From Crocinitomicaceae bacterium (GTDB lineage: Bacteria; Bacteroidota; Bacteroidia; Flavobacteriales_G; Salibacteraceae), in the NCBI GenBank assembly GCA_002713215.1, contig PAVO01000020.1, positions 62,001 through 126,000 of the forward strand: 64,000 nt of DNA, read 5' to 3'. This document shows, in pieces, positions 22,091-33,118 of this stretch; the first letter of the stretch is position 1; each line of letters starts with the position of its first letter. A model generated the notes under the pieces. That model worked only from the letters and a program-made list of their open reading frames with translations. It was not told where the DNA came from and made no database searches. Position numbers and translations under genes: made by a program.

Positions 22091-22330
22091 TTATTCATCA
22101 AACAATTTCCCGATTAAATACCCTATTAATGTAATTGCTCCAATAGCAAGTGCTGCATTTACAATTTCGTCTGAATTCTTTTTGTTTAGGTAGTCATTAT
22201 ATTGTAATTGAGTGATTTTACCACTCTCATACATCATACTCATAAACTCGTCTTTCTCCGCTTTGGTTGCTTGGTTGGCTTTCACTTTGTCTCCTAACAA
22301 TGAAAGCCTCTTGTAGTCTATGCTATTCAT
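22091..22330 (-). CDS. Small protein with C-terminal membrane helix, last gene of the defence operon
   Basis: 79 residues. A charged helical region (KANQATKAEKDEFMSMMYES, QLQYNDYLNKK) is followed by a hydrophobic helix (IVNAALAIGAITLIGYLIG). The first eight bases overlap the end of the upstream small gene. No family is recognised. The position after the RloC/PrrC-like gene in an unbroken co-directional run suggests a function with that ATPase, or an unrelated cargo. Confidence 0.6.
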   Translation of the reverse strand: MNSIDYKRLSLLGDKVKANQATKAEKDEFMSMMYESGKITQLQYNDYLNKKNSDEIVNAALAIGAITLIGYLIGKLFDE

Positions 22331-22565
22331 TATTATTGTTTTTAAAGTGATCGAAAACCTTATGTAACATTGGATAGAGTTGATTTAACTGGTCAATGGT
22401 TTGTTGCTGTAATTCATCCCTTTTCTCCAATTCTTTCATTTCTAGTTTTAATTCAGAGATTTCATCTTTAAAGCCATTTAATGTTTTAAAATGCCAATAA
22501 AGAAAACCGCCAATTGCAGAAATTGCAGCAAGGATTCCAAGTATTATTTGAAGTGTTTGACTCAT
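22323..22565 (-). CDS. Small membrane-anchored coiled-coil protein
   Basis: 80 residues. An N-terminal membrane helix (IILGILAAISAIGGFLYWHF) is followed by a heptad-like charged helix (ISELKLEMKELEKRDELQQQ) and NNNNE at the end. It starts nine bases after the RloC/PrrC-like stop and overlaps the next gene by eight bases. The layout resembles phage-type holin or spanin accessory proteins and many small membrane effectors, but nothing specific identifies it. Confidence 0.6.
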   Translation of the reverse strand: MSQTLQIILGILAAISAIGGFLYWHFKTLNGFKDEISELKLEMKELEKRDELQQQTIDQLNQLYPMLHKVFDHFKNNNNE

Positions 22566-22574
22566 TTTAATTGT

Positions 22575-24887
22575 TTATGAGACCGCTTTCAATAGTGAAT
22601 CGTAGTGGTCTTTATCATTGTTTTTTATAAGATTAAGTAAGTCAGAAACAGCATTCTCAATGTCACACATTAAATCGCTGTTAGTGATCATTCTTGTTAT
22701 ATCGTTTGAATGACTGAAATAATGAAACACCTTTAAAACCCTCTTTGAATTTTCAGACCCCCACAAATGGCTTGCTCTGTCATCAACTTTAGAGGACTCA
22801 TAATGCCCTGGTAAGCGAGAGTAGGTGTAAAGTTCAGTAAACCTTCGAACCGCATTTGGAATCCCCATCATGTCAGTTTCAGTTTTGGAAGCTGAACTGG
22901 AATTTTCGAAATGGTAGATTACATCAAACAAATAATGATACTCTGAAGAGTAATTTTTAAGTGAGTTAGGAAGTTGTGTAATTGTTGATTCCGTTTGATT
23001 CAATCGTTTTACGTAGTAATACAATTTCTTTTTAATCTTATTGCCATTGTGTTCAAAAAGCGGTGCATTCAGGTCTTTTCGCAGGAGACCAAAGAAATCA
23101 AAATTGTGAGTAGATATAAAAAGCTGTTTGCATTTCAATTCCCAAAATTTATCATCAGCCGACCTAGAAAGGAAGTACTCTTTTAAAAGAGCATTTACCT
23201 GAAAAATGTGATTACTATCTAGACTTGAAATTGGGTCATCGATATAGACAATTGTGTTTTCTATATCAGTGGTTTCATCAAGTTTTGTCAGGAAGTATGA
23301 AAAAGCAATTGCTGTTTTTTCACCTTCGCTTAAATGACGAGCTTCTTTATTGTTTCTAACTAATTTAAATCGCTCATTTTCTCCTTCTTTAAAGACTTTA
23401 ACCTTAACTTCTTTACGACCTAGAAATTTTTCAATATATGTGTTTAGCTGTTTTGCCCCAACTTGTGCCTTGCTAATGCTGCTTTCTAAATCTTCAATTT
23501 CGGTCTTTAATATTGGGATTTTGTCACTTAAAAGTTGTTTACGCCATTCTAGCCATATACTTAATTTGTCTTTTTCCCAAGGTTTGAATGCTAATATGAA
23601 TTCTGAAATGTAATGAGCTTTTACTTTTTCTTCGGCATCTTTTTTATTTTGAGCAAATTCAGCTGATTTTTTATTATGCTCATCAACAACGTTATTGTAC
23701 TTCACTTTTAGTACTTCAACAGATTCATAGTTGGTGTTAATAGTTGAAAAGTCTGTAATTGGTTTAAATGGTTCGTCAAACTTTGATTGTATCAAGGTTG
23801 CAAACTTGTCAATCTCGGAGTTGTAATCATCTACTGCCTTTTTTAAATCAGTAGAAAATGAATCAAGGTTAATCCATAGTTCAGTATAAAAGGAACTTTT
23901 TTCAAGAGTAGGGTATGTTAGCTTAGATTCAATAACTTCCTTTTTCAAGGCAATTAGTTTAATCTTATGCTCTTTTAAATCCTTAGAAAAGTGAGCCATT
24001 AATTCCTTTGTGCGTTCTTCATCAATTTCGTTTCCGCAATACTCACACTTGTCTTTACCATTGTTAATTGTTTCAAATCCTTTTTCTACCCAATCAGCTA
24101 CATCTGGATTGTCAACGAAATATTGAATAATCTTGGAAAATTCAGGAATAGAATTGAGCAATCCCTTTGAATCCTCAATTTTCGTACTTAGTTGATAAAG
24201 AGGGTTGAACTTATCAACATCAAGTAGTTTATCAGATTCATTTTTAGTAGCCCAAGCCGTACTCTCTCTTAACTCATCTGTGGAAAGAACTTTTGCTTTA
24301 TAATGACCACTTTTAATTATTGGGTTATAATCCACTGTTGCATGGCTTACTGTGTAAGCCGATTGTCCATATTGCAATGCTGCTCTTATTTCTCTTGCTA
24401 CTTCTCGTAATCCTTGAGTTAATGAGTTAGCTAAAGTATTTAGTTGGTTATCAATTGAGTTTGCTTGAGCACCTGAAATGATTTTGTGGTATTTATCTAA
24501 TAGGTCTTGCTTTTTAGCTATTTGATCTAGGGCGTATTTTGATTCTTTTCCGACAATCAAAATAGGATTGAAAGCTTCTCCCTCTAAGTGAATATTATCT
24601 CTGACAAAATCTGAATTAAATATTTTGAACAGGAGTGGAGCTGTTGCAATATCAGAATGAGTGTATGAACCACCATCATAGTCTTCTATCTTAAAATCAC
24701 ATCCGTTGTAATAATTGTCTATTTCCTTATTCTCAAACGATTGAAAGATTCTTGAAATGGTTGTTTTACCTGAATAATTCCAACCATAAATAATATTGAG
24801 TTTGGCAAAGTCCTGAAAGTCTCCGTTTCGTTGATAGTCCTTGAAAACGCCAAAATCTTTAATATGGTTGATTCGTTTTATCATCAC
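22575..24887 (-). CDS. RloC/PrrC-like AAA ATPase, candidate anticodon nuclease
   Basis: 770 residues. ABC/SMC-type ATPase parts are split by a coiled coil: Walker A GWNYSGKTT (about residue 36-44), a coiled coil with CEYCG (about 277-281) that could form a zinc hook, signature LSEGEKTAIAF (about 515), Walker B IVYIDDPISSLDS (about 548) and an H-loop STHNFDF. This is the AAA_13 layout. The C-terminal part has RRFTE (R-x3-E, about 680) and FSHSND (about 720), matching the Arg-Glu-His triad spacing of the PrrC/RloC anticodon nucleases only approximately. RloC-type enzymes cut the wobble position of tRNA on phage attack. Its ATG overlaps the res stop by four bases. An ordinary OLD/AAA_13 nuclease remains possible. 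Confidence 0.75.
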   Translation of the reverse strand: MMIKRINHIKDFGVFKDYQRNGDFQDFAKLNIIYGWNYSGKTTISRIFQSFENKEIDNYYNGCDFKIEDYDGGSYTHSDIATAPLLFKIFNSDFVRDNIHLEGEAFNPILIVGKESKYALDQIAKKQDLLDKYHKIISGAQANSIDNQLNTLANSLTQGLREVAREIRAALQYGQSAYTVSHATVDYNPIIKSGHYKAKVLSTDELRESTAWATKNESDKLLDVDKFNPLYQLSTKIEDSKGLLNSIPEFSKIIQYFVDNPDVADWVEKGFETINNGKDKCEYCGNEIDEERTKELMAHFSKDLKEHKIKLIALKKEVIESKLTYPTLEKSSFYTELWINLDSFSTDLKKAVDDYNSEIDKFATLIQSKFDEPFKPITDFSTINTNYESVEVLKVKYNNVVDEHNKKSAEFAQNKKDAEEKVKAHYISEFILAFKPWEKDKLSIWLEWRKQLLSDKIPILKTEIEDLESSISKAQVGAKQLNTYIEKFLGRKEVKVKVFKEGENERFKLVRNNKEARHLSEGEKTAIAFSYFLTKLDETTDIENTIVYIDDPISSLDSNHIFQVNALLKEYFLSRSADDKFWELKCKQLFISTHNFDFFGLLRKDLNAPLFEHNGNKIKKKLYYYVKRLNQTESTITQLPNSLKNYSSEYHYLFDVIYHFENSSSASKTETDMMGIPNAVRRFTELYTYSRLPGHYESSKVDDRASHLWGSENSKRVLKVFHYFSHSNDITRMITNSDLMCDIENAVSDLLNLIKNNDKDHYDSLLKAVS

Positions 24888-27538
24888 TCAATCAATTGCC
24901 CTACTTTGTTTACCACCTTGTATTCTAATTCTTCAAATTCGTTGAAGTGTGCTTTACCACATTTGATTTTTAATTGCTCGTCCCCACTTAGTTTGGCTAA
25001 ATCAACTTCTGGTGTTCCTGTGTCTTTGGTTTCTGCAACAAAGTAGATTTTCTTATCATCTTCAAATACCAAAGCCCAATCTGGATTGTAGTTTCCAATA
25101 GGGGTAGGGATTTTAAACCAATTTGGTAATTTGAAATAGAACTTGATTTGGTCGCTTGATTCACAATCCTTTGCAAACTTGCTTTCAACTCCTGAGTCTA
25201 ACGGAACAAACTCTTCGTAAATCGTTTTTGAAGTGTCGGTTACTTTAAATGAAAAATCATTTAAATAGACCTCTAATTCCTGAGCTTCAAAAAGAGCCAT
25301 TTCATATTCTTCACTTCCAATTTTTTGATATTTGATTCCATCAATCATCAAGTCATACAGAGTTCGTTTTATGGCTTGGGTTGTTAAGTCCAAAAACAAT
25401 TGTGGATTGATTAAAATATCTCCAATTCTGTCTGACTTACTTAGGATTTCTTGAATGGTTGAGCGAGTAAGTTCCGTTTTGCTTTGTATGTAACCTAAAA
25501 CATCTGGGATTTTCCAAGAGTAGCCGCCATAGGATTCCACTTTATCTCCTGCATACATGGTTTCAACTCCTTCATCAGTCATACTGATATTGACTTTCGT
25601 TGAGCGAATAGAAGGGGCTTTAATTTCGGGTAAGTCTTTAACTGATTTTGAAGCTAAAGTGATTAACTCGTCTGTTTTATAGTCAACTCGATAAGTAGTT
25701 TTCTTTTTTAGGTTTTCCCATATCTCCAAGAATTTTGGGTCTGCTTCAAATCCTTTTCGGTACTTGATTACAGTACGCTCTCGTTTGTTTTTAATTCTGC
25801 CTTTAAATTCAACTCCACAATCATCTTCAATTTCTTTCTGTAAAGTTTTGGCAAAGTCATCGTAAGATTCATTGGCAACTACAGTCAAGCGGTTTATGTT
25901 TTGGTCATAAGTTCTTTGACCTGTTTGGTCAACAGCTAAACGTAAGCCTCTGCCAATTTCCTGACGCTTTTTAACGTCTGATTTGGTTTCGTTTAAGGTG
26001 CAAATCTGGAATACATTTGGATTGTCCCAACCTTCTCGAAGTGCGGAGTGTGAGAATATGAATCGCAGTGAATTGTCGATATTCAATAACTTTTCTTTCT
26101 CTTTCATTATCAGACTGTATGTATCATTATCCGCTTTGGTTTCTCCCGAAGTATCTTTGAATTTGCCCTTTTTATCTTGTGAAAAATAGCCGTTGTGCGT
26201 TTCTTGAATAGTGAATTTGTCAAGCTCTTTAAAGGCGGGTTTTGAAATGTATTCTTGATAAATTTCTTCAAACCATTCGGCAAATTTTCCTCTGTGTGGA
26301 TTTCCTGCTGAATCGTAGTAACGATAATTGGCAACTTTGTCTATGAAGAATAGTGAAAGGACTTTTATTCCTTGTTTATTGAGTCTTTTTTCCTTCTTTA
26401 AATGCTCCTCAACCGTTTTGCGGATTTGGAATTTCATCACTTCATCGTCCAATCCACCTTGGCTATCGCCTTTGTACAATAAATTGCCATTAGATAATGA
26501 AATGCATTGATTGGTTACGTCTATTTCTTCAATAATGTAGCCATTTGAATAAATCTCTCGTTCCTTAGAAAGTTTGTACAAGTCATTGCCAACATTTACT
26601 GAAACTGATTTCTTTTTTACGCCTCCTGCCTCATTGATATTAATGGAAACTTTAGCGGTAACTTTTGTTTTTGTTGCTTTAATAGAATCAACTTGAACAA
26701 AGGCATCATTAAAAGCATTTTCTTCTACAATAGAATCTACCTCTATTTGCTTAACTAAACCTAAATCGTAGGCTTTTACAGGATTTAAGCTGTAAGTAAG
26801 ATTGTATTGGTTGCGGTGTGTTGCCGAGTAACGAAGTGTACAAAGTCCATTTAAGTTTTCAATTGCAGAAATACGTTTTTCGGTTTCCATGTTTTGTGGC
26901 TCATCCACAATTACAATGGGATTTGCTGATTGAATAAATTCAATGGGTTTGCGTCCATTAGCTCTGTAATGCGGTTGGTTGATTATGTTTTGGTCTTTGG
27001 CAAATGAATCAATATTGATTACCAATATTTCTATGTTGTTGTTGGTTGCAAAGCCTCTGAGTGTTGACACTTTAGCACTGTCGTACACTTGAAAATTGAT
27101 AGGGGAGTTATCGTACAGATTTTGAAAATGGATATGAGTGATTTCTAAATTCTTTAGTACCCCTTCTCGAATTGCCACCGAAGGCACTACGATTACAAAC
27201 TTTTTGAAACCATACAGTTTGTTGAGTTCATAAATGCTTCTCAAATACGCATAGGTTTTTCCTGTACCTGTTTCCATTTCTACAGAAAAGTGCATACCAT
27301 CTAACACCTTACTTTGTTCAATTTCGTTTTGTTCTTGAACCGATTGAAGGTTTTTTAGAATTTGCTCTTCTGACAAAACCAAGTTATTGCTTACGCTATT
27401 AAGCAGGTCTAATTTGCCTTCTTCTTTAAGGCTAAACTCCATTATGGAATCTTCTAAAGGTTGTCCTTCAAATAAATCGGTAATTGATTTTATAGCGTCC
27501 TGCTGATATTGCAGATTAGAATCAAACGTTAATTTCAT
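24884..27538 (-). CDS. res: Type III restriction endonuclease subunit Res
   Basis: 884 residues. Superfamily 2 helicase motifs are in order: Walker A METGTGKTY (about 88-96), DEPQN (motif II, about 212), YSATH (motif III), REGWDNPNVFQICTL (motif V, about 500) and RQEIGRGLRL (motif VI, about 528). The C-terminal nuclease has PDW...ETK (about 820-837), the PD-(D/E)xK site. Res with Mod moves along DNA and cuts when two unmodified sites are engaged. Length fits the family. Its ATG overlaps the KilA-N stop by one base (TAATG), and its end overlaps the RloC/PrrC-like start. Confidence 0.92.
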   Translation of the reverse strand: MKLTFDSNLQYQQDAIKSITDLFEGQPLEDSIMEFSLKEEGKLDLLNSVSNNLVLSEEQILKNLQSVQEQNEIEQSKVLDGMHFSVEMETGTGKTYAYLRSIYELNKLYGFKKFVIVVPSVAIREGVLKNLEITHIHFQNLYDNSPINFQVYDSAKVSTLRGFATNNNIEILVINIDSFAKDQNIINQPHYRANGRKPIEFIQSANPIVIVDEPQNMETEKRISAIENLNGLCTLRYSATHRNQYNLTYSLNPVKAYDLGLVKQIEVDSIVEENAFNDAFVQVDSIKATKTKVTAKVSININEAGGVKKKSVSVNVGNDLYKLSKEREIYSNGYIIEEIDVTNQCISLSNGNLLYKGDSQGGLDDEVMKFQIRKTVEEHLKKEKRLNKQGIKVLSLFFIDKVANYRYYDSAGNPHRGKFAEWFEEIYQEYISKPAFKELDKFTIQETHNGYFSQDKKGKFKDTSGETKADNDTYSLIMKEKEKLLNIDNSLRFIFSHSALREGWDNPNVFQICTLNETKSDVKKRQEIGRGLRLAVDQTGQRTYDQNINRLTVVANESYDDFAKTLQKEIEDDCGVEFKGRIKNKRERTVIKYRKGFEADPKFLEIWENLKKKTTYRVDYKTDELITLASKSVKDLPEIKAPSIRSTKVNISMTDEGVETMYAGDKVESYGGYSWKIPDVLGYIQSKTELTRSTIQEILSKSDRIGDILINPQLFLDLTTQAIKRTLYDLMIDGIKYQKIGSEEYEMALFEAQELEVYLNDFSFKVTDTSKTIYEEFVPLDSGVESKFAKDCESSDQIKFYFKLPNWFKIPTPIGNYNPDWALVFEDDKKIYFVAETKDTGTPEVDLAKLSGDEQLKIKCGKAHFNEFEELEYKVVNKVGQLIE

Positions 27539-28422
27539 TATTCAGGTAATTCGTTAGGGCTGTTTGAATCTAAATAAACATCGTCAGACGTTTTTTTGAT
27601 TGACTTTAAAAAGTCTTGCTTGTCCAATATTTCTTTTTGGTATTGAGCAATGTTGTAGAGCTTGTTAAAGCGATCTTGCTTGCTGAGCCCTTCTCTAATC
27701 ATATCCGCATTGGCAGATTCTAAATTAGATAGAACCGCCAATTCATTTATACTGGCAATATCTCTAAGGTTTTTACCTTCTAAAGTCAAATGGGGATTGG
27801 CTTCTCGCCATTGTTTGGCAGTACATTGAAACAAGGCAACATTTAATATGTCTGCTTCTTCTGCATACGCCAACCATTCCGTTTCTTTGGTGAAATTAGA
27901 TTCAGGAAGTATGTAATCTTTTACCGCATCGGTTTGAATGGTGTAGTTCACCTTGCTCAATACTCTTTTTACGTTCCATTCTAAGTTGTACTGGTTGTTT
28001 TCTACCTCTTTTAATCGTTGGTATTCCTTTACAATATAGAGTTGAAATACGGGACTAATCCACATTCCAAAGTTGAATGCAATATCCTTGTGAGCATAGG
28101 TTCCTCCATATCTTCCTGCTTTGGCGATAATACAAGTAGCATTGGTTTTTTCAATAAGGTCTTTTACACTTATTTTAAAAGCATTTGAACCTGCCGATTG
28201 TCTAATTGTGGCGAATTCGCCATAATTAAAATTAGGATTGTGCATTGACTCCCATGCAGAGATATAATCTAGTGTATTGGCATTTCGCAGCCAATCGCTG
28301 ATAAAAAACGAACCGTCTTTGGCTTTAATCATATCCGTCAGGCTGATAAAGTCATCCGAGTTGTGATCAACAATAGTTATGATATTGCCTTCTACTTCTA
28401 TTTTTTTGATTTTTGAACTCAT
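27538..28422 (-). CDS. KilA-N domain protein between mod and res
   Basis: 294 residues. The first 115 residues form a KilA-N domain (ISLTDMIKAKDG, FFISDWLRNANTLDYISAWE, GGTYAHKDIAFNFGMWISPV, LYIVKEYQRL), a DNA-binding fold found in phage and phage-defence genes. The rest has further helical segments (QCTAKQWREANPHLTLEGKN, LAVLSNLESANADMIREGLS) resembling ORF6N/KilA-C type extensions. It overlaps res by one base and lies 50 bases after mod, with a perfect palindrome in that gap. It could be a repressor of the res part, or a phage-DNA sensor; neither is shown. Confidence 0.85.
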   Translation of the reverse strand: MSSKIKKIEVEGNIITIVDHNSDDFISLTDMIKAKDGSFFISDWLRNANTLDYISAWESMHNPNFNYGEFATIRQSAGSNAFKISVKDLIEKTNATCIIAKAGRYGGTYAHKDIAFNFGMWISPVFQLYIVKEYQRLKEVENNQYNLEWNVKRVLSKVNYTIQTDAVKDYILPESNFTKETEWLAYAEEADILNVALFQCTAKQWREANPHLTLEGKNLRDIASINELAVLSNLESANADMIREGLSKQDRFNKLYNIAQYQKEILDKQDFLKSIKKTSDDVYLDSNSPNELPE

Positions 28423-28442
28423 ATTATCTTGCTCATTAATTT

Positions 28443-28466
28443 AAAGTGGTCGAATTCGACCACTTT
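28443..28466. promoter_or_regulatory. Perfect 24-base palindrome upstream of the KilA-N gene
   Basis: The half-site AAAGTGGTCGAA at 28443-28454 is followed directly by its exact complement to 28466. It lies in the 50-base gap between the mod stop and the KilA-N ATG. As DNA it is a good two-fold operator; as RNA it folds into a 10-bp or longer hairpin with a tight turn that could limit read-through from mod to res. KilA-N and the XRE regulator are both in the operon and either could bind it. Confidence 0.85.
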
Positions 28467-28472
28467 GGAAAA

Positions 28473-30497
28473 TCATATCGTTTTAAATTCTATTCCTGCA
28501 TCTTTCATTTGTAAAGAGGCGTTTGTTTTCAATTGGTCGTTGCCTTTAAAAAGCTTGTCTAAGGCAATTACTTTTTGTGGCTTGGTGGCAATTATAGCAT
28601 CAATGATTTCCTGATTGGCTTTTTCTAATATCAAAACCAACTCTCCATCATTTACAATGGTGAAGCCCTGAGCTTGTTGAAGACTGCTATTTAAGTCTTT
28701 CCCACTTTTAAGCAAAAGTTCATACACCATATTTTCAGTAGTAGCACTTTCAGCAACGGGGTCAACAAAAAGCTTCATTTGTTCTTCAAGAGCTTGCATG
28801 TCATTACCTGAAATTTGTTGCCATTGCTTAAAGTTGCTATCTGCTAATTTGAGAACTTTGAAGCCTAAGTCTTGATTTTTGACCGAAGTGTTTTTAAAAG
28901 TGGTGGTTTCAGTTTCTGTAGTGGTTTTAATAGAACTAATAGAATCAGTACCTAAATCTAAGCCAAGGATTTGTTGATTTTTCTTTGATTTTACTGGAAC
29001 AACCTTCTCTTTTTCTATTTCTTTAGCTGCTCGTCTAATGCGTTCTTTGGCAATATCTGCTATGGTTTTATAACCTGCTTTGTAAGCCTCACTTTTTTCA
29101 TCACACTTTTCTGGTAATTGAACACTAATACATTTTCTGTTACCGCCATCTTCGGCATTAAGTGCCATTACAGCATGAGCTGTAGTTCCTGAACCTGAGA
29201 AGAAGTCAAGAACATAAGAGTTGTTGTCAGAAGAAAACTTCATAAGTTTTTCAATCAAGAATGTTGATTTTGGAAAGCTCATTACATTTTTTCCAAACAG
29301 ATTTTTAATTTTTTGCTTGCCAAAATCATTATTTATTTCCTTATCCAACCAAATTGATTTTGGAAGTGTTCTTGCTGCTCTCCCATCTTCATCGAGTAGA
29401 TAATCTTTCCTGAAAACTCTAAAGTCGCTATCAGATTTTTCAGCAATAAGCAATTCGTTCTCATTTTTTACTTTGTCCTTTCCCCAAGTCCAACAAGTTT
29501 GCACTCCATCGGTTGTGTCAGGAAGTATTTCAATTGAATGTGTTTCAGATTTGTCTAGCGAAACTGTACCGTTTTTTGGATTAACGAACAAAGAGTAATA
29601 TAACTTAGGTCGAGTAACTGGATTAAAAGCTTGATTCCTATTTCTTAACCCGATTAGTCGATAGGCTCCTTTCCCATCCTCATCATCTCTGTTATATTCT
29701 TTTACCATTTTCCCCTCTTTCTCCAAGCCTTTCATGGAGTCAAGGTTTTCAGAGTTTTTAGTGTAGACCAAGATATGTTCATGTGTTTTAGCTATGAATT
29801 TATCTAAGTTTCTACCTCTTGGGTTTAATTGAACTGCTAAGGAAGCAATGTGATTTTCTTCTCCGAATATTTCATTCATTAATAGAATTAAATTATGCAT
29901 TTCATTGTCGTCAATGGACACAAAAATGACCCCATCTTGTTTGAGTAAGTTTTTGGCTAAATAGAGGCGAGGCATCATCATATTGAGCCAATTACTATGG
30001 TATTGTCCATTTTCTTTACTGTTCTTTTTGAACATACCGTCTTTTGTCATGTAGCCTTCTTCGTCTTTGTCGCCAACTCGTTTTTCGTATTCCGCTTTGG
30101 TTTCAGAGAATTTGTCGGGGTAAATAAACGAGTCGTTACCTGTGTTGTAAGGTGGGTCTATGTAAATCATTTTCACCTTACCGAAATAGCTTTTTTGTAG
30201 CACTTTGAGTACTTCTAGGTTTTCTCCCTCAATAAAAATATGTTCGGTTTCGTTAAAGTTTACGCTTTCGTCTTTGGCGGGCACTAGTGTTTTTGTGGTG
30301 GGTGCTTGCAACACTTTAAAGGCTTCACTTTTTCCTGCCCAATTGAGTACATAGCGTTCGTTCGAGAAGTTAATATCCTCACCAAGTGTAGCTTTTAGTT
30401 TTTCCCAATCTATTTTTCCTTCGGTAAATGCCTCAGGCATCACTTGTTTTAAAGCGTTCAGTTTTTCTTGTTCTGGTGTTAGACTTGCTCCGTCCAT
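28473..30497 (-). CDS. mod: Type III modification methyltransferase Mod (N6-adenine, beta class)
   Basis: 674 residues. The catalytic motif IV DPPYNTGN lies near residue 117 and the SAM-binding motif I DFFSGSGTTAHAV near 433; this order (IV before I) is that of beta-class adenine methyltransferases, as in Type III Mod. The recognition region is between them. The ATG follows the stop of the XRE gene without a gap. Mod both protects host sites and recognises the target for Res. Target sequence not predictable. Confidence 0.93.
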   Translation of the reverse strand: MDGASLTPEQEKLNALKQVMPEAFTEGKIDWEKLKATLGEDINFSNERYVLNWAGKSEAFKVLQAPTTKTLVPAKDESVNFNETEHIFIEGENLEVLKVLQKSYFGKVKMIYIDPPYNTGNDSFIYPDKFSETKAEYEKRVGDKDEEGYMTKDGMFKKNSKENGQYHSNWLNMMMPRLYLAKNLLKQDGVIFVSIDDNEMHNLILLMNEIFGEENHIASLAVQLNPRGRNLDKFIAKTHEHILVYTKNSENLDSMKGLEKEGKMVKEYNRDDEDGKGAYRLIGLRNRNQAFNPVTRPKLYYSLFVNPKNGTVSLDKSETHSIEILPDTTDGVQTCWTWGKDKVKNENELLIAEKSDSDFRVFRKDYLLDEDGRAARTLPKSIWLDKEINNDFGKQKIKNLFGKNVMSFPKSTFLIEKLMKFSSDNNSYVLDFFSGSGTTAHAVMALNAEDGGNRKCISVQLPEKCDEKSEAYKAGYKTIADIAKERIRRAAKEIEKEKVVPVKSKKNQQILGLDLGTDSISSIKTTTETETTTFKNTSVKNQDLGFKVLKLADSNFKQWQQISGNDMQALEEQMKLFVDPVAESATTENMVYELLLKSGKDLNSSLQQAQGFTIVNDGELVLILEKANQEIIDAIIATKPQKVIALDKLFKGNDQLKTNASLQMKDAGIEFKTI

Positions 30498-31075: not shown

Positions 31076-33118
31076 TCACTGTTCCAACTTCTTTACCATG
31101 GTCAAAATGGTAGCAATGGCAACTGTCTCACCAGTTTCATCGTAAACGTCAACCAGGAATTTTACAATTCCTTTGGCAAACTCTTCGTCATCCCTTTTTT
31201 CCTGATCTACTTTTTCTTTTACGGTGAACTTAACGCCGATAGTAGCTCCAGTATATACTGGTTTTACAAAACGACATTCTTCTAACCCATAATTAAGAAG
31301 AACCGGTCCTTTACCTGGATCAACAAAGAGTCCAGCTGCTGCGGAAAGAATAAAGTAACCATGGGCTACGCGCTCTTCGAATATGGTTCCGTCAAGCGAG
31401 GTAGTATCCGTGTGAGCATAAAAATGATCCCAACTTACGTTGGCAAAGTTTACAATGTCACCTTCAGTTATGGTTCGCTTGTGCGTCATAACCGTTTCTC
31501 CCACGTTCAACTCTTCAAAGTGTTTTCTAAATACATGTTTTCCGGGATCGAAAAACTTTCCACCTACTTGATATTGCTGTGTGATTTCAGTAATCGTTGT
31601 CGGGGAGCCTTGAATGGCAGTGCGCTGCATATAATGCATAACTCCTCTTTTTCCTCCCATTTCTTCACCACCGCCGGCTCTTCCAGGCCCTCCATGCGTA
31701 AGCAGTGGCATAGGTGAACCATGTCCGGTGCTTTCCTTGGCACAGTCAGCATTCAATACCAGGATTCGTCCGTGCATGTTAGCCGCACCCACCACGTATT
31801 CTCGGGCAACTTTGTCATCACCAGTAACAATGGATGAAACCAATGAGCCTTTACCCATTTGAGCCAGGGCAACCGCATCGTCGATGCTTTTGTACGGCAA
31901 AATAGAAGATACAGGCCCAAAGGCTTCCACTTCATGAACATCCGTTTTATTAAACGGATCATCGTTTCTAAACAGAATGGGAGAGAGGAATGCACCCTTG
32001 TCTTTATCTGCACCCATTACTTCAAAATTGTCGAGGTTGCCGTAGACAATTTCCTGAGATTGACTCAACAATTCAACTTTTTCCCGGACTTCTTCTACCT
32101 GGCTTTTTCCTGCAAGAGCACCCATTCTTACACCTTCAACCTGTGGATCTCCTAGTGTTGTTTTTCCTAGTGCCTTACCTAAGGCAATTTGTACATCTTC
32201 AGTAAGTTCTTCGGGTACGATAATTCTTCGAATAGCCGTACACTTTTGACCTGCTTTTACAGTCATTTCTTTTCGAACTTCCTTGATAAAAATGTCAAAT
32301 TCAGGAGTTCCCAGTTTAGCATCCGGTCCAAGTACCGACGAATTCAAAGAATCAGCCTCCATGTTAAAAGGAACTGCTTTTTCAATGAGGCGAGGATGAG
32401 CCTTGAGCATCATTCCCGTAGAAGCTGAGCCCGTAAAGGTTACTACGTCTTCTGACTCAACATGATCTAATATTCCATTAGCTGAACCACAAATTAATTG
32501 TAGGGCTCCTTCCGGAAGTATTCCTGAATCAATGATGTCTTTAACCATTAGTTCGGTTAAAAAACTAGTAAGAGTTGCTGGCTTGACCACAGCAGGAACA
32601 CCTGCCATTAAATTAACCGCCACCTTTTCAAGCATTCCCCAAATGGGGAAATTAAAGGCATTAATGTGAAGTGCAACCCCTTGTTTTGGTACCATAATGT
32701 GATGACCAATGAAAGTGCCTTCCTTGGAAAGGGGAACAGCATCGCCATCAACGTAGTAGGGGAGGTCCGGGAATTGCCGCCTTAAACTGGCGTTGGCAAA
32801 CAGGTTCCCAATTCCCCCTTCTATATCGATCCAACTATCAACCTTGGTTGCTCCCGTTGCCCAACTAAGTTCATAGTATTTTTTCTTTTTGCCGAGCAGG
32901 TGAAGGGCGAGCGCCTTAAGCATTAGTCCTCGTTGCTGAAAGGTCATTTTTCGAAGGGCAGGGCTTCCCTTTTCTCTTCCATATTGCAATACATCAGCAA
33001 AGTTTAGTCCGGTGCTACTCGCTGTAAATAATTGTTCACCGGTAATGGCATGATACAAGGCTTTCCCTTCGTCGTTTCCTTCTACCCAACTTCCCTGTAC
33101 GTAATTTTTTAATTTCAT
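31076..33118 (-). CDS. paaZ: Bifunctional oxepin-CoA hydrolase / aldehyde dehydrogenase PaaZ
   Basis: 680 residues, the normal PaaZ length. Residues 1-510 are an NAD(P)-dependent aldehyde dehydrogenase with FNMEADSLN (Glu base) and GQKCTAIRR (catalytic Cys, about 293). The C-terminal 150 residues are a MaoC-type hydratase with SWDHFYAHTD, keeping the Asp and His of the ring-opening site. In phenylacetate breakdown it opens oxepin-CoA and oxidises the resulting semialdehyde. No other paa gene is in the window, so it stands alone here. A terminator follows. Confidence 0.92.
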   Translation of the reverse strand: MKLKNYVQGSWVEGNDEGKALYHAITGEQLFTASSTGLNFADVLQYGREKGSPALRKMTFQQRGLMLKALALHLLGKKKKYYELSWATGATKVDSWIDIEGGIGNLFANASLRRQFPDLPYYVDGDAVPLSKEGTFIGHHIMVPKQGVALHINAFNFPIWGMLEKVAVNLMAGVPAVVKPATLTSFLTELMVKDIIDSGILPEGALQLICGSANGILDHVESEDVVTFTGSASTGMMLKAHPRLIEKAVPFNMEADSLNSSVLGPDAKLGTPEFDIFIKEVRKEMTVKAGQKCTAIRRIIVPEELTEDVQIALGKALGKTTLGDPQVEGVRMGALAGKSQVEEVREKVELLSQSQEIVYGNLDNFEVMGADKDKGAFLSPILFRNDDPFNKTDVHEVEAFGPVSSILPYKSIDDAVALAQMGKGSLVSSIVTGDDKVAREYVVGAANMHGRILVLNADCAKESTGHGSPMPLLTHGGPGRAGGGEEMGGKRGVMHYMQRTAIQGSPTTITEITQQYQVGGKFFDPGKHVFRKHFEELNVGETVMTHKRTITEGDIVNFANVSWDHFYAHTDTTSLDGTIFEERVAHGYFILSAAAGLFVDPGKGPVLLNYGLEECRFVKPVYTGATIGVKFTVKEKVDQEKRDDEEFAKGIVKFLVDVYDETGETVAIATILTMVKKLEQ

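Follow-up and report, generated by a model that had tools for sequence, protein, structure and literature searches.

An RloC-like protein encoded in a type III restriction-modification operon

The window analysed here, a stretch of 64,000 nucleotides from a Crocinitomicaceae bacterium, carries a type III restriction-modification (R-M) operon whose last gene, as judged from motifs and conservation, can be assigned with good support to the RloC family as a new member. Our preferred and probable explanation is that a type III R-M operon has been combined with a KilA-N gene and with an RloC anticodon nuclease that would be governed by its own internal DNA-break switch. Both the protein and its type III linkage belong to known kinds: the family has been described, and the published RloC definition and linkage already cover this case. 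The most useful new observation is that the type III chassis has two fixed exchange sites, one between mod and res and one directly after res.

Gene content and borders of the operon

Four genes follow each other on the minus strand of the window from position 30497 down to 22575: mod, a KilA-N gene, res and the gene for an AAA_13 protein, here called rloC. The type III DNA methyltransferase Mod (28473-30497, minus strand) has 674 residues and an N6_N4_Mtase domain, is recognised by the PADLOC MTase_III model (E 2e-176) and keeps its DPPY and FSGSGT motifs. The slot between mod and res is filled by a gene for a KilA-N domain protein of 294 residues (27538-28422, minus strand), which matches the PADLOC candidate PDC-S22 over its full length (E 2e-116); homologues of it are located within type I loci (L218, L219, L227, L231) and within a type III-like locus (L220). 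The restriction subunit Res (24884-27538, minus strand; 884 residues) is detected by PADLOC REase_III (1025 bits) and by the Pfam domain RE_endonuc (E 1e-33), and retains both the helicase motifs GTGKT and DEPQ and the endonuclease motif PD...E.K. With Mod and a helicase-endonuclease Res encoded in one operon and their catalytic motifs in place, the type III system is intact-looking. The initial annotation had listed mod, res and an RloC-like gene, whose co-linearity is confirmed by PADLOC, Pfam and motifs, but it had omitted the KilA-N gene between mod and res.

The rloC gene ends at 22575 on the minus strand and starts either with ATG at 24884 (769 residues) or with GTG at 24887 (770 residues). 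At the junction, the stop codon of res and the start codon of rloC lie within gagtgatgat. A four-base overlap (GTGA) had been proposed initially. Because the relatives of rloC begin at the residue matching the ATG at 24884 and not at the upstream GTG, the start is probably this ATG and the overlap one base (TGATG).

Nine bases after rloC lies an open reading frame of 80 residues (22323-22565, minus strand) with an apparent single transmembrane helix and a coiled coil. We considered it as a conserved partner of rloC and rejected it, as no homologue was found near other rloC genes; it may or may not belong to the operon. On its other side, the operon adjoins a conserved aldehyde dehydrogenase-like gene (31076-33118). 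The operon-side neighbours of this gene differ across the seven same-family genomes examined, which places the operon in a variable region. The rloC gene was absent from all 34 other same-family genomes searched.

Six invariant residues place the AAA_13 protein in the RloC family

The product of rloC matches PF13166 (E 2.4e-126), PADLOC PDC-S06 over its full length (E 1.2e-145) and, more weakly, the PADLOC PrrC model (E 1.1e-12). Both PDC-S06 and PDC-S22 are PADLOC catalogue entries of candidate defence genes, to which the library assigns no mechanism. Numbered from the GTG, the protein contains a Walker A motif (35-43), a CxxC motif (281-284), an ABC signature (520-525) and a Walker B motif (547-555), followed by a C-terminal HEPN-like domain (~640-770) with the triad R681-x3-E685-x40-H726 and S725 directly before the histidine. 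Taken by itself, the loose R-x3-E...H pattern is weak proof, because it occurs by chance once more in the same protein, at R511. The RloC assignment rests instead on the conservation of six residues: C281, C284, R681, E685, S725 and H726 are invariant in an alignment of 75 homologues with identities down to 20%, and the triad is likewise invariant in a 59-member alignment of the C-terminal domain. This invariance of the triad argues for catalysis.

RloC was defined by Davidov and Kaufmann through an Arg-x3-Glu-x36-52-His triad, often with a serine before the histidine, through a coiled-coil CxxC insert in an ABC ATPase, and by a length of 658-897 residues (PMC2610378). The window protein shows the triad spacing, the CxxC insert in its ABC ATPase and, at 769 or 770 residues, the size of this family. 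Compared by published description, the RloC proteins of Geobacillus kaustophilus and Acinetobacter baylyi likewise combine a Rad50-like ABC head, a CxxC hook and the C-terminal triad with its serine, and on both sides an R-M system of type I or III is occasionally linked (8/73). The window gene differs in its position immediately behind the res gene of a type III operon with an additional KilA-N gene. PrrC of E. coli, which belongs to the type Ic system EcoprrI, shares with the window protein the ABC ATPase, the C-terminal anticodon nuclease triad and the location in an R-M locus. However, PrrC proteins have 341-416 residues, possess neither a coiled coil nor a zinc hook, and are linked to type Ic hsd genes, whose products silence them; the window protein has 769 residues, bears the hook and is encoded in a type III locus.

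A PDB sequence search with the single RloC-like protein gave no match; a profile of the RloC family aligned in its hook region with two Rad50 zinc-hook structures, 6zff and 1l8d (E 0.003). The predicted full-length model (pLDDT 87.2) has long helices between the two halves of the head and matches Rad50 and SMC heads in the PDB. Lower in the list appears LmuB of Lamassu, an SMC/Rad50-like defence ATPase. Lamassu uses a separate protein as its effector, whereas in the window RloC the HEPN-like domain sits on the same chain as the ATPase.

The C-terminal 135 residues, modelled alone, are all helical (pLDDT 87.7), with R681 and E685 on one long helix and S725 and H726 at the end of another. A Foldseek search of this model against the PDB returned HEPN toxins and Csm6' among its first rows, the best E-value of 0.7 being not significant. 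In a re-alignment with VIA-align, HEPN proteins occupied the first 12 rows with HEPN toxins on top; their Z-scores of 7.6-8.7, compared with at most 6.5 for unrelated helical bundles, are suggestive, as is any Z of 8-9 for a helical bundle this small. Because Foldseek was not significant, the HEPN assignment rests on the VIA re-alignment and on the published family assignment (PMC3710099), and the model is suggestive of a HEPN-fold nuclease domain. Two elements of the initial annotation thereby stand: the AAA_13 ATPase with a CxxC and a C-terminal R-x3-E...SH pattern is present and invariant in its 75 relatives, and the predicted structure of its C-terminus falls, at the strength given above, in the expected HEPN effector class.

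Near-identical DNA was found in no E. coli genome, and none of the phage records covers 80% of the RloC-like protein.

Type III linkage of RloC arose several times

We inspected the genomic context of the 80 closest RloC relatives in GTDB genomes; at least 3 kb of flank on both sides was available in just 53 of these loci, which makes the following R-M linkage counts lower bounds. A type III res gene directly precedes rloC in four loci (L093, L097, L105, L110), and hook and triad are kept in all four. Type I loci hold a further four relatives (L066, L073, L081, L108), and Eco57I-like methylases adjoin four more (L092, L094, L102, L111). Other neighbours are an nSTAND3-Mrr gene, a PDDEXK gene, an HD-CE gene and a DUF4011 helicase, and most remaining relatives have no recognisable R-M partner. 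When 59 further rloC-adjacent genes were searched for missed R-M systems, one type II (CfrBI-like) system emerged, and type III Res was not found among the families listed for them. Four plasmid-borne RloC homologues with usable annotation had no R-M gene annotated alongside.

In the phylogenetic tree, the window protein clusters with unlinked genes, and its 28 nearest relatives are all unlinked. The distribution of type III linkage needs four changes. A single clade of type III-linked RloCs was rejected, as well-supported branches force at least three of these changes; the linkage was thus gained independently several times, at least three.

Several of the loci surveyed have an organisation of their own. 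The one at L093:3303-12289 is another operon of the order mod-X-res-rloC, X being a Schlafen/AlbA_2 protein where the window has KilA-N. At L055:10001-14440, RloC is fused in frame to an Mrr-nuclease/nSTAND3 protein, giving 1479 residues; in L045, L047 and L049 the latter has a gene of its own downstream. A conserved gene for a PDDEXK-like protein of 343 residues follows rloC within ~3 bases in five Bacteroidota loci (L067, L068, L069, L071, L101; cut by the contig end in L069), and its product is a candidate RloC partner outside R-M loci. An RloC-like gene annotated as hypothetical lies on a conjugative Klebsiella plasmid with OXA-48 (L191:9001-11304), where no R-M neighbours are annotated, and the same kind of gene is present on an E. 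coli IncX1 plasmid (L190). Split or frameshifted copies of rloC were found in L046, L063, L200, L201 and L214, which would be in keeping with a gene that is costly or toxic.

The type III chassis carries exchangeable cargo at two sites

For a survey of the chassis, 395 genomes were sampled from the phylum of the window; 68 of them encoded a relative of Res with an E-value of at most 1e-30, and the surroundings were inspected at 40 of these res loci. None of the 40 has rloC after res. Where mod lies upstream on the same strand (32 loci), at least one open reading frame separates it from res in 29, and the annotated contents of this slot vary: SLFN/AlbA_2 (L151), PDC-M19A (L152), GmrSD/HEC-06 (L154), PHP-SMC (L156) and PDC-M59A (L165). 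The closest chassis, L150, has a Res 87% identical and a Mod 61% identical to those of the window. Its first slot contains HEC-01A/HEC-01B, and the PADLOC HEC names presumably stem from work on defences embedded in R-M loci. Its second slot (L150:8907-12359) encodes a protein of 1150 residues, joined to res by a TAATG junction, that matches AAA_16 weakly and no PADLOC model, and is a possible new defence effector. Nucleotide homology between the window and L150 spans window positions 27542-24882, which is almost exactly res, and ends at its borders. As the L150 chassis bears other genes in both slots and the nucleotide homology is limited to res, the comparison gives direct evidence for KilA-N and RloC being interchangeable cargo of a single chassis. 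A literature search, which covered sources other than preprints, found no published description of such a two-slot architecture.

How RloC might be controlled within the operon

RloC cleaves tRNA at the anticodon and excises the wobble nucleotide, an activity switched on by linear DNA and ATP. In Geobacillus RloC, mutations of the triad abolish activity and a zinc-hook mutant is hyperactive (PMC2610378). In characterised RloCs, linear DNA elicits a response of the ATPase and mutations in the hook uncouple the nuclease; agents that break DNA activate Acinetobacter RloC in R-M mutants and R-M-deficient hosts (PMC3874168). Because the window protein keeps the zinc hook, we infer the same internal switch for it. 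By analogy, its own hook and ATPase would keep RloC off; binding of the head to free double-stranded DNA ends, together with ATP hydrolysis, would switch it on, and the active enzyme would then cut tRNA at the anticodon and stall translation for as long as the ends persist. In an infected cell, degradation of host DNA by the phage is one conceivable source of such ends, and the cutting of unmethylated phage DNA by the Res of this operon is another. Instead of silencing the second layer, restriction may thus help to trigger it. An overlap of one to four bases between stop and start codon would tie expression of rloC to that of res.

The strongest competitor, which we hold possible but clearly less probable than our preferred explanation, regards rloC as an insertion behind res that is carried on the res transcript and functions apart from restriction, its position reflecting cargo exchange in defence loci. 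The two readings share the identity of the protein and the internal switch, so that our confidence in one overlaps with that in the other, and the sole difference is the denial of functional coupling. Such independence agrees with the 28 unlinked nearest relatives, the absence of rloC after res at the other loci examined and the differing slot contents of closely related chassis. However, the repeated recruitment beside restriction subunits suggests some benefit of the pairing, and the stop and start codons of res and rloC overlap.

The initial annotation had instead favoured control as in PrrC, in which Mod-Res would bind and silence RloC until a phage anti-restriction factor disables Mod-Res and frees tRNA cleavage. 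This has a precedent in PrrC-EcoprrI (PMC2610378, PMC3874168), and it would suit the translational coupling implied by the overlapping junction as well as the position of rloC immediately after the restriction subunit in several independent lineages. We nevertheless judge it unlikely and do not retain it as first choice: the internal DNA-break switch of characterised RloCs works without R-M, and Acinetobacter RloC was neither silenced nor activated via its R-M system under DNA breaks (PMC3874168). Moreover, the hook that PrrC lacks is kept here, most relatives have no R-M partner, the nearest ones included, and a Res 87% identical adjoins different cargo, hence a dedicated Res surface for RloC is not evident. 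A type III partner is not special in itself either, as the initial annotation had implied, since reports of RloC genes linked to type I or III systems date back to 2008 (PMC2610378). The C-terminal domain might also not be a tRNase, acting as a HEPN RNase on mRNA or rRNA or being a catalytically dead structural domain. HEPN RNases do have varied substrates (PMC3710099) and Foldseek support for the domain is weak, but the R-x3-E-x40-(S)H arrangement fits the RloC definition and its full invariance speaks for catalysis. We hold this the least probable of the readings, by a small step.

Beyond our preferred explanation of an RloC with an internal switch, Res-made ends, or stalling or inhibition of Res, could switch on whichever effector fills the second slot of a standard two-site chassis, here RloC. 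We regard this generalisation as doubtful, although less so than control as in PrrC; if true, a single operon would connect restriction and abortive infection in series.

Implications

The novelty of an RloC in a type III operon is modest. RloC is among the few defence proteins that cut tRNA and have a sensor of DNA breaks built in. The operon of the window and the closely related chassis with other cargo offer a clean comparison for learning whether the nuclease is silenced by restriction, triggered by it or indifferent to it, and the exchange of cargo at two slots marks a place to seek new defence genes, such as that for the 1150-residue protein after res in L150.
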